26,178 nucleotides of DNA from a virus. This document shows positions 13,605-24,184 of the stretch, one piece after another. How positions within the stretch are numbered: the stretch's first letter is position 1; each line of letters opens with the position of its first letter. The stretch covers positions 1-26,178 of the IMG/VR virus record IMGVR_UViG_3300043773_000488. One strand, 5' to 3'. Below the pieces are notes generated by a model. It saw only the letters and a list, made by a program, of their open reading frames with translations, searched no databases and was not told the origin of the DNA. The position numbers were made by a program, and so were the translations under genes.

Positions 13605-13642
13605 GTTTTCAATCTTTTAATTGTTTTTAGGTTGGTTCAATC

Positions 13643-13931
<289 letters not shown>

Positions 13932-21132: not shown

Positions 21133-21810
21133 TTAAGGTGCTGCCACTGCCAGCCCAAATCCAAGCAACATCCCAACACCAACCTTGAATCCTGTTGTCT
21201 CATACCACCTTGGCGGCTTCCTTACCACAAAGTTGCTCATGCCAGTGACCACCACATTGGGATTGTCCACCCTGATGCGCACCACCGGATCACTCTTTTT
21301 AATTAACCTATTAAAGAAGCCATTTCTGACAGTGTCTCCAAAGGCCACAGTGTAAGATGTTGGAATGATTAAAGAATCGATCTGGAGGCTTCCCAATCGG
21401 TTTATCTCACCACCAATTGTGAGATGTTTATCTTTCTTAAAGAAGGGCCTTGGCAATGTTAAATGAGGCATTGAGTCAATATACACCGGATCGGCAAGCT
21501 TGATCTCTGTCTTTACAATTGTCTTGGTTTGATACTTCACCACCTCTGTTGGCTTGCGCATCTCCATGATCTCTATCTCCTTTCTTAAATCCTCCTCCAG
21601 TTGGGCAGATCGAATTAATCTAATGCCCTGGCTGGTTAAATTGGATGAATCCTCTGCCATCCTGCTGACCAGTTTATCCTTGTACTCAATCATGGTCTTA
21701 AGATCGGCCTCTGCTGCCATCTGATCCTGGCATGACTTAAAAGAAAATAAGAGCAGTGATAATATCACTAATGAATAGATGACATGATGCTTAAGTGAAG
21801 TCTCTGACAT
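21133..21810 (-). CDS. Two-membrane-segment protein with coiled coil, spanin-like (225 aa)
   Basis: The N-terminus MSETSLKHHVIYSLVILSLL with LFSFKSC is an uncleaved signal-anchor type helix (about residues 9-27); the Cys (27) lacks a standard lipobox. A charged helical region follows, residues about 28-90 (DLKTMIEYKDKLVSRMAEDS), then a beta-rich domain and a C-terminal hydrophobic segment, GFKVGVGMLLGFGLAVAAP. An N-terminal anchor plus a periplasmic coiled coil is the layout of inner-membrane or unimolecular spanins, and the gene lies in the lysis cassette. Similar architecture occurs in many unnamed Bacteroidetes phage proteins, so the spanin role is a hypothesis. It starts 20 bases before the end of the 61-residue gene. 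Confidence 0.65.
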   Translation of the reverse strand: MSETSLKHHVIYSLVILSLLLFSFKSCQDQMAAEADLKTMIEYKDKLVSRMAEDSSNLTSQGIRLIRSAQLEEDLRKEIEIMEMRKPTEVVKYQTKTIVKTEIKLADPVYIDSMPHLTLPRPFFKKDKHLTIGGEINRLGSLQIDSLIIPTSYTVAFGDTVRNGFFNRLIKKSDPVVRIRVDNPNVVVTGMSNFVVRKPPRWYETTGFKVGVGMLLGFGLAVAAP

Positions 21811-21976
21811 GGCTTAAAATTTCATTAAATTTAGCCAAATAACTTGATTTATCCTTGAGCTGATCCATCAATATCTGGCTTACCACATTAAGCGGCATGT
21901 CACGCTCAAGCACATACACCACCAATACCTTAACTAATCTCTCATCACATTCAATATCGGTTGCAGGTAGGCTCAT
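21791..21976 (-). CDS. Hypothetical protein (61 aa) behind the PAS/DHp gene
   Basis: The sequence is MSLPATDIECDERLVKVLVV, then YVLERDMPLNVVSQILMDQL and an ending KFNEILSHVRDFT. It is helical and amphipathic with no transmembrane run. It begins 13 bases after the PAS/DHp stop with TATCTTTG four bases before the ATG, so the two may be transcribed as a unit or separately. It is not a missing ATPase domain. No family recognised. Confidence 0.62.
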   Translation of the reverse strand: MSLPATDIECDERLVKVLVVYVLERDMPLNVVSQILMDQLKDKSSYLAKFNEILSHVRDFT

Positions 21977-21989: not shown

Positions 21990-22556
21990 TTAAATTTGCC
22001 TTGTGGCTTTCTTAACCAACAATTTTACTACCTCATCAAGCCTGTCCACTGATGAGGCAATCATGATCATGATGCCGCTTTTTTCTTGCTCTGTGGCCTC
22101 TGGATGATCAAGCAGCATTCTCACCAATCCACCGATTGAAGTAAGCGGCTGCCTGAGCTCATGGCTTAACATGAATCTGAACTCTTCCAGAAGTACCTTC
22201 TGCCTCTCATGCTCATGTGCTGAAATGGATGTAACATCCACAAGCTGAATCCCAATAAAGTGCAGGCTGTCCATGATTGAATATACATTCCACATGTTGT
22301 ACCTCTCTGATCCAATTTTCTGCTTTGTTTTGGCATACACTCGGACTGCATCTGGAGTATTTTTTTTTGCCTTCTTGATGGCCCTTAGCAGCTCATCCTT
22401 ATCGGAGTCATGGGCAGCAATGTCCATTATATTAGATGGCTTGATGTGGCTGCTGTATTCCTTGAATAAATCATTGGAGGCCACTATTGCCCCATCCTGA
22501 TCGGATATGACATAGAATAGATCAATGGATGATTCCAGGATATGCAGGCTTGCCAT
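21990..22556 (-). CDS. PAS + histidine-kinase dimerization (HisKA) protein without ATPase domain (188 aa)
   Basis: Residues about 8-108 form a PAS-like sensor (LFYVISDQDGAIVASNDLFK, then LHFIGIQLVDVTSIS). The HisKA/DHp helix follows, with the phosphoacceptor motif FMLSHELRQPLTSIGG; H132 is the phospho-acceptor, followed by E133, R135 and P137 as in real kinases. The second DHp helix runs to about 185 and the protein then stops, so the HATPase_c domain with N, G1 and G2 boxes is absent. There is no receiver domain and no membrane segment. It may pair with host histidine kinases or relay phosphate. It lies between the lysis-type genes and is expressed with them. The domain call is strong; the mechanism is inference. 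Confidence 0.85.
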   Translation of the reverse strand: MASLHILESSIDLFYVISDQDGAIVASNDLFKEYSSHIKPSNIMDIAAHDSDKDELLRAIKKAKKNTPDAVRVYAKTKQKIGSERYNMWNVYSIMDSLHFIGIQLVDVTSISAHEHERQKVLLEEFRFMLSHELRQPLTSIGGLVRMLLDHPEATEQEKSGIMIMIASSVDRLDEVVKLLVKKATRQI

Positions 22557-22560
22557 ATCA

Positions 22561-22568
22561 CAAAGATA
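22561..22568 (-). promoter_or_regulatory. TATCTTTG, -7-like box four bases before the PAS/DHp ATG
   Basis: An exact TAnnTTTG match in the 30-base gap upstream of the PAS/DHp gene, with TGAT between it and the ATG at 22556. A TTG lies 24 bases upstream of the box, farther than ideal for a -33 element. It may provide separate expression of the PAS/DHp gene. Confidence 0.38.
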
Positions 22569-22586: not shown

Positions 22587-22988
22587 TTAAGACAATTCTT
22601 GCCTGAGCTCATTGAAGAGTGATGCCCATGATGGGCCACATGTGATGGCATACTTAGCAGCAACAGCAAGCATAAATGCGAAGGTAAGCGAATTGCAAAG
22701 TAAATCAATATTCATAGGCTCTTCAATTTCTGGCTGATTTCTTACTTGGTGAATCTTGATGGTGTGGTACGTTGATTCACTTAATAAAGATACATCAACA
22801 GGCTGAATTGAATCGGAAGCATAATGAATTATTTTTTTAACCGGTGCCACATCCACCATTGGCACTGTATCAATGTGTGCTGTGTCCACCTTTGCCACCA
22901 CCTTTGCCACTATCTTAGTATTCGGCCTATTTGGATGATTAGGGCAGTGGCCTGGACTTGCGCAATATATTGTGTCAATTGGTATCAT
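22587..22988 (-). CDS. Hypothetical protein with one hydrophobic segment, lysis cassette (133 aa)
   Basis: I chose the ATG at 22988, which overlaps the holin-like gene by 14 bases; a frame open to 23060 would lie mostly inside that gene. The N-terminus MIPIDTIYCASPGHCPNHPN has a Cys/His cluster. A low-complexity middle contains repeats such as KVVAKVDTAHIDTVPMVDVA. The C-terminal third has LLCNSLTFAFMLAVAAKYAI, a possible single transmembrane helix. No lipobox or signal peptide is seen at the N-terminus. Given its position between a holin candidate and the PAS/DHp gene, it may be a membrane accessory of lysis. No family recognised. Confidence 0.6.
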   Translation of the reverse strand: MIPIDTIYCASPGHCPNHPNRPNTKIVAKVVAKVDTAHIDTVPMVDVAPVKKIIHYASDSIQPVDVSLLSESTYHTIKIHQVRNQPEIEEPMNIDLLCNSLTFAFMLAVAAKYAITCGPSWASLFNELRQELS

Positions 22989-23178
22989 TGCCGTTGGTTT
23001 TAGGGATGTAGCCTGCTGCCACCATTGCTGCGACAATGCCGGCCAAAGTCTCGATCTCAATCTTTTTTAAGATCAGCAAAAATACAGATCCTAAAATCAC
23101 AAGGGAGCCAATGGTAGGCTTCCAATGTTTTAGGATGATATTGCAGATCTTACGTGCTTTGGTAGGCTTGCGACTCAT
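22975..23178 (-). CDS. Two-helix small membrane protein, holin candidate (67 aa)
   Basis: A basic N-terminus, MSRKPTKARKICNIILKHWK, is followed by two hydrophobic segments: about residues 20-37 (PTIGSLVILGSVFLLILK) and 42-58 (IETLAGIVAAMVAAGYI). The C-terminus is short and polar (PKTNGNDTN). Small size, two helices and a place 50 bases after a lysozyme gene are characteristic of class II-like holins, which open the inner membrane at the time of lysis. Sequence family is not recognised, so the call relies on topology and context. The next gene starts 14 bases before its stop. Confidence 0.65.
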   Translation of the reverse strand: MSRKPTKARKICNIILKHWKPTIGSLVILGSVFLLILKKIEIETLAGIVAAMVAAGYIPKTNGNDTN

Positions 23179-23228: not shown

Positions 23229-23684
23229 TTATTTACAAAGTGAGAAATAAAGCTTTGCCTCTTCATTTCTGCGAGTCACCAATCCGGGCAACACCTTGCC
23301 ACCGCCTCTCACCCACTTTTGGAACTCATCCACAATAGATGGATCAGCAGGATTGACTTTGGCCTTCTTTAATAATGTGGACTTAATGAATGCACCTGTG
23401 CCCACATTGTATGTGAATGACACAAGTGCATCGAATTGGCACTGGTTAAGGTTGGGTAAATGTCTATTTACAGCAGCTTCATAAGATTCTAATGATGCAA
23501 GCAATAATTGAGTGGCCTCTTTTTCGCTGCTTAATTTTTCTCCAAGTATAACCTTGCGGCCATCAGCATGCCTGGTGTTGCCATAGCCAATTGTGGGCAC
23601 CCCTGCCGGGCACAGATAGCTGCTTAATCTTAAACCCTCATGTTTCTTAATAATTGATAAACCCTGAGCCGATGTAGAGCGCAT
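23229..23684 (-). CDS. Endolysin, T4-type lysozyme (GH24) with Glu-Cys-Thr triad (151 aa)
   Basis: This muramidase cuts peptidoglycan between N-acetylmuramic acid and N-acetylglucosamine. The catalytic region is KKHEGLRLSSYLCPAGVPTI with E16, C25 and T31 at the same 9- and 6-residue spacing as E11, D20 and T26 of T4 lysozyme. The Asp-to-Cys change is also found in P1 Lyz. GYGNTRHADG follows, and later FDALVSFTYNVGTGAF and GLVTRRNEEAKLY, both typical of the family. There is no signal peptide or signal-anchor, so a holin is needed for release; the holin candidate is the next gene. Length is normal. It begins three bases after the fibre-like gene. Confidence 0.93.
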   Translation of the reverse strand: MRSTSAQGLSIIKKHEGLRLSSYLCPAGVPTIGYGNTRHADGRKVILGEKLSSEKEATQLLLASLESYEAAVNRHLPNLNQCQFDALVSFTYNVGTGAFIKSTLLKKAKVNPADPSIVDEFQKWVRGGGKVLPGLVTRRNEEAKLYFSLCK

Positions 23685-23686
23685 GA

Positions 23687-24184
23687 TTACAATACTAAAT
23701 ATTGAACTGTGATGTAAATATACTGATATGCGTATGCTGTGCTGACTGATGTCAATCCAATGCTTGCTGTATTATTTACAGTATTGGCAGATAATGCCCA
23801 TCCAGGCAGCTCAGATGCATCGGCATCATGTGCAATAATACCCACTAAATCTTTAGAATTAACAAAGTTGGTGGCAACAGGTAAGCTCAATTCAAATGCT
23901 GCCTCAGTTTGTCCGGTGTCCAAAGCTACATCCAAAAAGAATGTGCAATTAACCACATCATTAACCCTGCTGTAATATGTAGCCAAAGGTGTTACAACTT
24001 CGCCATAAGTTTCATTAGTTACGGTAGGCGTAAAGCTGCCACTCTCAAACTGTGGCATACCTGAGTATAGATTCTGAAGCTCAATCTGCTTTGATTGGTT
24101 CGAACTTGTGTCCACAATGTACATCACATCGGCTGCATCTGCTGTGCCTAATGTAGTTAAGTCGGTTACTTTTACACCTGCCAT
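23687..24184 (-). CDS. Fibre- or spike-like structural protein (165 aa)
   Basis: The N-terminus VKVTDLTTLGTADAADVMYI with VDTSSNQSKQIELQNLYSG is a recurring attachment motif of phage tail fibres and spikes. FESGSFTPTVTNETYGEVVT then leads into a beta-rich body (YYSRVNDVVNCTFFLDVALD, AAFELSLPVATNFV), resembling C-terminal receptor-binding or needle-head domains. It ends AYQYIYITVQYLVL. It lies between the large fibre gene and the lysozyme gene. It is probably a short fibre, a decoration or a receptor-binding protein. No enzyme motif is visible. Confidence 0.78.
   Translation of the reverse strand: MAGVKVTDLTTLGTADAADVMYIVDTSSNQSKQIELQNLYSGMPQFESGSFTPTVTNETYGEVVTPLATYYSRVNDVVNCTFFLDVALDTGQTEAAFELSLPVATNFVNSKDLVGIIAHDADASELPGWALSANTVNNTASIGLTSVSTAYAYQYIYITVQYLVL

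Follow-up and report, generated by a model that had tools for sequence, protein, structure and literature searches.

The window analysed here, a stretch of 26,178 nucleotides of viral DNA, encodes the half of a HisKA histidine kinase that senses and accepts phosphate, a protein that phages have kept without the ATPase half. Hundreds of viral contigs carry this PAS-HisKA protein with a near-invariant phosphoacceptor box, and searches of open-licence papers turned up no account of such a phage histidine kinase. The gene and its parts are as follows.

21990..22556, minus strand: PAS-HisKA protein, 188 aa, without an ATPase domain (open reading frame and HisKA match; 186 distinct intact family members)
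22239..22526, minus strand: PAS domain, residues 11-106 (AlphaFold2 model and its VIA-align 2 superposition)
21999..22220, minus strand: signal helix and DHp (HisKA) hairpin, residues 113-186 (PF00512 match and modelled helices)
22161..22163, minus strand: codon of the phosphoacceptor His132 (invariant, 186/186 intact members)
22149..22151, minus strand: codon of Gln136 (H+4), the position of Thr or Asn in HisKA phosphatases

The two halves of the protein were recognised by different means. The Pfam HisKA profile (PF00512) matches residues 129-177 with E=8e-8 and 32.6 bits, above its curated cut-off of 26.9, and 29/29 family representatives gave a HisKA match. By sequence the PAS domain is weak, with a TIGR00229 match at E=0.004 (17.4 bits against a cut-off of 22.9) and a PAS_9 match in 3/29 family members (best E 0.007). 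Over a longer span, the NCBIfam PhoR and PnpS models reach 2e-9 across approximately residues 15-181, from the PAS domain through the DHp domain, at scores far below their equivalog cut-offs, and the PAS-DHp part of the sensor protein 3a0r is the top whole-length sequence match among solved structures (E=5e-6). The PAS domain, signal helix, DHp hairpin and H-box thus align nearly end to end with those of PAS-HisKA sensor kinases. The differences are that ours is a phage gene, that no member has an HATPase_c domain, and that Gln replaces Thr or Asn at H+4.

The AlphaFold2 model, a monomer built with 29 diverse family members as input, has a mean pLDDT of 80.6; 13 near-identical sequences gave only 57. 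It places a PAS domain at residues 11-106, with most blocks at 85-93, and two helices in the C-terminal half, 113-150 and 156-186, with H132 in the first (block pLDDT about 61-87). Residues 11-105 superpose on PAS domains with a VIA-align 2 Z of about 14 and an rmsd of 1.9 Å over 94 residues, a figure that covers the PAS domain and does not apply to the DHp part. The best Foldseek matches, at E values between about 4e-7 and 1e-6, are LOV/PAS-histidine-kinase constructs; their large rmsd probably reflects a hinge between the domains. The chain ends two residues past the second DHp helix, and hydropathy indicates no transmembrane segment. The first-pass annotation of this DNA had described a PAS-like segment, an intact H-box with H132 and a stop soon after the second DHp helix; all three features are borne out by the reading frame, the Pfam match and the model, in which the expected DHp helical hairpin is present.

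Phage VqmA (7dwm) is also among the fold matches. In phage VP882, VqmA is a phage-borne PAS protein with which the phage senses its host and redirects its own programme (PMC10426928). VqmA is, however, a receptor-transcription factor of a temperate phage. The PAS-HisKA protein lacks a VqmA-type C-terminal DNA-binding domain, its C-terminal half being the HisKA DHp hairpin.

The family is large and uniform. A single scan found 324 IMG/VR stretches with relatives, and with divergent clades included the set comprised 341 loci and 187 distinct proteins, 50-100% identical to the window protein. All but one of the distinct proteins (186/187) are intact, with lengths of 185-189 aa. The sole broken copy, L163, is frameshifted to 101 aa, possibly by a sequencing error. 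A scan of viral contigs for the codon pattern FxLSHELR[QRH]PLTS gave at least 110 matches, and all the listed ones belong to this family. Among 83 non-redundant close sequences, pS was 0.58 and pN/pS was 0.19 overall and 0.10 across residues 125-146. Between the window and a relative, G001, identity is 78% for PAS-HisKA, 79% for the lysozyme, 79% for a primase-like ORF and 89% for TerL, against just 44-59% for the adjacent holin, 61-aa and transmembrane ORFs. By this comparison, PAS-HisKA is conserved at the level of core phage genes. The near-constant length and the purifying selection rule out a truncation or pseudogene, and with 186 intact relatives, none of which carries HATPase_c, the earlier description of the protein as a half-kinase, rather than a truncated copy of a full one, is upheld.

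Outside these viral contigs, the searches found little. No match over most of the protein was found in 50,697 annotated phage records, which gave only four partial matches (33-34%), all in unannotated "Listeria phage" records. Two scans of genome contigs for a bacterial homologue, host kinase or regulator returned nothing clear, with one 35% match over 66 residues in a Vicinamibacterales MAG, and a plasmid search returned one partial match at 30%.

The catalytic half is likewise missing from the rest of the phage genomes. The first-pass annotation had noted that neither this gene nor the next carries HATPase_c motifs. Our profile searches confirmed this for the protein and the neighbouring window proteins, and found no HATPase_c domain at E<=10 in 45 phage records (the window and 44 others, 26-52 kb, many possibly incomplete). 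No receiver domain was found in 15 records. All 14 control genomes gave a signal in every HATPase_c, receiver and integrase search. Since both HATPase_c and receiver domains are absent from these records, the partners should be host proteins. A phage-encoded response regulator was rejected as the target on the same 15 records. A prophage or temperate regulator was also set aside, provisionally, as a search limited to integrases of the tyrosine type gave no match in 35 records, fragments among them.

Some full kinases, FixL and DctB among them, naturally have Gln at H+4 (HELNQPL or HEINQPL), and the Gln of the phage family may be inherited from an ancestral kinase. Because that ancestor may have had Gln, this residue does not prove that phosphatase activity is absent. 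The H-box as a whole, L-S-H-E-[LI]-R-Q-P-L-T, is essentially invariant, with synonymous sites near saturation. In the 186 intact proteins, H, H+1 Glu, H+3 Arg, H+5 Pro, H+6 Leu and H+7 Thr are invariant and H+2 is Leu or Ile, so that the pattern HE[LI]RxPL holds in every one; H+4 is Gln in 185 and His in one. The Thr or Asn that marks a bifunctional HisKA kinase/phosphatase at H+4 is absent. In mutagenesis of CrdS and other HisKA kinases, the His, the H+1 Glu and a hydrophobic H+2 were essential for autophosphorylation, a basic H+3 was required for full activity and a Pro at H+5 was helpful (PMC3510030). Work on CrdS, HK1190, HK4262 and HK853 assigned the H+1 acid to kinase activity and the H+4 Thr or Asn to phosphatase activity, and the N375Q mutant of CrdS, an Asn-to-Gln change at H+4, had no measurable phosphatase activity and retained ~60% of its kinase activity (PMC3510030). 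The family therefore appears to be frozen in a phosphorylatable form, without the residue expected for a DHp-only phosphatase. The combination of fixed acceptor residues and Gln at H+4 favours phosphorylation in trans by a host catalytic (CA) domain over phosphatase or decoy action.

The PAS-HisKA protein likely acts on host two-component signalling through its DHp domain. It would dimerise through the DHp helices with a host histidine kinase, His132 would take phosphate in trans from the catalytic domain of that kinase, and the phosphate would pass to the host response regulator. Lacking the usual phosphatase residue, such a heterodimer would bias the host pathway to the phosphorylated state, or otherwise reset it; the PAS domain would gate the effect, probably with help from the co-encoded ~60-aa protein. 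A trans-phosphorylated, phosphatase-defective heterodimer with a host kinase stands only a little short of even odds. To the complete reading, in which a widespread phage module of the PAS-DHp half-kinase and the ~60-aa protein, expressed from a leaderless promoter, would hijack a conserved host kinase, be phosphorylated by the host ATPase, be unable to dephosphorylate and so lock the pathway in a PAS-gated signalling state while the infection runs, we assign a probability of roughly 0.35. We infer heterodimer formation, the identity of the host kinase and regulator, the direction of the effect, the PAS signal and the role of the small protein. Among the options listed in the first-pass annotation, the heterodimer phosphorylated in trans fits best, as the residues for phosphorylation are all fixed, with the host partner supplied by inference. 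If this reading is true, host two-component systems routinely receive a phage protomer that can be phosphorylated but is phosphatase-dead, which would amount to a natural experiment on DHp heterodimer signalling and on the resetting of host physiology by phages. With a fixed H-box and a coupled small protein, the idea is testable with two genes.

Two systems offer precedents. RetS takes the place of one GacS protomer by way of DHp-DHp contacts (PMC12148439), and a ChrS protein frameshifted in its CA domain heterodimerises with HrrS and raises target output by cross-phosphorylation (PMC9491836). Both likewise act through DHp-DHp contact or heterodimer formation rather than their own catalysis, and they show such a mechanism to be physically reasonable. 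Unlike the phage protein, they are bacterial full-length or laboratory-evolved proteins, and the likeness comes without a sequence link.

The strongest alternative, possible but distinctly less probable, is an HPt-like shuttle or sink, in which the protein's own DHp homodimer would take phosphate from a phosphorylated host receiver or hybrid kinase and pass it on or hold it, with no host-kinase protomer involved. An invariant His and H-box, and phage records without an ATPase or a receiver, would fit such a role, as would the near-constancy within the family of H+7, H+11 and H+12, which we take to be kinase-regulator specificity positions. The phosphotransferases Spo0B and ChpT have a DHp domain followed by a degenerate CA-like domain; the phage protein, which ends so soon after its second DHp helix, has no CA-like domain. 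Against the shuttle, conservation is higher in the segment preceding the His (mean entropy 0.39) than in residues 140-149 below it (1.09), and the H+1 Glu, which matters for autophosphorylation rather than for phosphatase action (PMC3510030), is also invariant.

It is unlikely that the protein is a PAS-gated phosphatase that dephosphorylates a host response regulator, or a decoy that merely sequesters it. On their own, the DHp domains of EnvZ and NtrB are enough for phosphatase activity (PMC3510030), an example of a lone DHp domain acting on a response regulator. However, they need the Thr or Asn that is Gln in nearly all members of this family, which in addition has an attached PAS domain, and the same exchange from Asn abolished the activity in CrdS. 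The drainage of phosphate from a host regulator, suggested by the first-pass annotation, is accordingly less likely if it is to occur by phosphatase action. Its PAS-gated decoy is disfavoured as well, since the invariant His and Glu would be superfluous in a pure decoy.

The surroundings of the gene contain the following features.

22561..22568, minus strand: TATCTTTG, a Bacteroidota -7 promoter box, 12 nt before the PAS-HisKA start codon
21981..21988, minus strand: a further TATCTTTG box, 12 nt ahead of the partner ORF, found in the window-like subclade (at -12 in 6 relatives)
21791..21976, minus strand: 61-aa obligate partner ORF, family not recognised
21133..21810, minus strand: ORF with an N-terminal transmembrane segment by hydropathy, spanin-like by anatomy only
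22587..23060, minus strand: ORF between holin and PAS-HisKA, read as an open frame, with no assigned function and an uncertain start codon
22975..23178, minus strand: holin-like ORF with two hydrophobic segments by hydropathy
23229..23684, minus strand: lysozyme (PF00959, E=2e-39)

The motif TAnnTTTG lies exactly 12 nt before the PAS-HisKA start in 100 of the 187 members and at -13 to -15 in 8 more, about 58% in total; in a wider set, 117/203 PAS-HisKA starts have it at -12 or -13. It is absent from the MSA- and MAT-starting clades and from nearly all MSS-starting members; immediately ahead of the start, the MSS clade has a sequence similar to the 3' end of the upstream ORF. In F. johnsoniae, the TAnnTTTG element lies at -12 to -5 from the transcription start (PMC6847099). 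With that spacing, a box 12 nt before the start codon implies that transcription should begin at the start codon itself. A leaderless transcript of its own is therefore predicted for PAS-HisKA, and the two TATCTTTG boxes of the window predict leaderless phage transcripts in a Bacteroidota host. A scan for sigma-70 promoters and terminators gave results at chance level, as expected if the host promoters are of the TAnnTTTG type. GGAG-type Shine-Dalgarno motifs are absent, and the terminase resembles that of Flavobacterium phage 11b, with 32% across 60% of its length. On the grounds of the promoter box, the absent Shine-Dalgarno motifs and the terminase, these phages probably infect Bacteroidota.

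In all 121 loci with enough flank, the holin, lysozyme, PAS-HisKA and transmembrane ORFs occur together, and the 61-aa gene was detected in 120 of them. The earlier remark that the gene sits in the lysis cassette thus stands, and relatives do share its neighbours. The link to lysis timing that the same remark drew has position as its sole basis, and is countered by the gene's own promoter box, its partner gene and the same-strand downstream ORFs, some of which look replication/recombination-like by sequence and position. PAS-HisKA adjoins lysis genes, yet it may not be one, and its own promoter may instead mark the start of an early unit. Control of the holin or envelope proteins by a PAS-gated dimer, outside host two-component signalling, would account for the constant neighbours, and we consider it improbable. 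The promoter box was found within 60 nt of 0/137 lysozyme starts and 0/200 holin starts, the protein has no transmembrane segment, and a purely structural role leaves the invariant phosphoacceptor box unexplained.

Another box, TAHHTTTG, lies upstream of position 24184 (minus strand) of the window. In many relatives it precedes the g23687 gene by about 22-24 nt, and it occurs within 60 nt of 105/189 g23687 starts. It is a probable leadered promoter of the lysis unit.

The closest associate of PAS-HisKA is the small gene that follows it. Of 179 distinct members with sufficient flanking sequence, 176 gave a ~60-aa ORF 3' of PAS-HisKA. Among the other three, two carry the partner ORF in a D[DQ]RL variant form and one is the frameshifted copy, so that the ORF follows PAS-HisKA in 178/178 intact members with enough flank. 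Conversely, 72/72 newly fetched loci found through the small protein also hold PAS-HisKA. The two genes share a 4-nt ATGA overlap in 154 relatives and lie 13 nt apart in the window. The partner appears to be obligate and, in the relatives, usually translationally coupled. Its protein is 52-69 aa long, with invariant positions that include D, RL, Y, E and MP, and gave no convincing match to known families, solved structures or annotated phages.

Coupling of this kind marks out the 61-aa protein as a good candidate for a small protein that binds kinases. It also counts against the host heterodimer, in that the real partner of PAS-HisKA could be phage-encoded. Sda and KipI, small accessory proteins predicted to block the CA-DHp interaction (PMC12189002), are possible analogues, with no detectable sequence relation; that the 61-aa protein may bind the DHp domain as Sda does is only an idea. 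Natural split kinases are conceivable and an obligate gene is a phage-encoded companion, but a split kinase with a phage-encoded ATPase subunit too divergent to recognise is very improbable, as the partner is too small for a CA domain and the control-backed search found no HATPase_c in the 45 records.

Two further observations concern the genomes at large. At 13637-13846 of the window, 3' of the primase-like ORF, a simple-sequence run reads IYIYIHTHTHT in spurious ORFs. G001 (L149:10744-12840) has three extra ORFs between its tail and portal-like genes, which by eye are glycosyltransferase- and methyltransferase-like and form a possible modification cassette.
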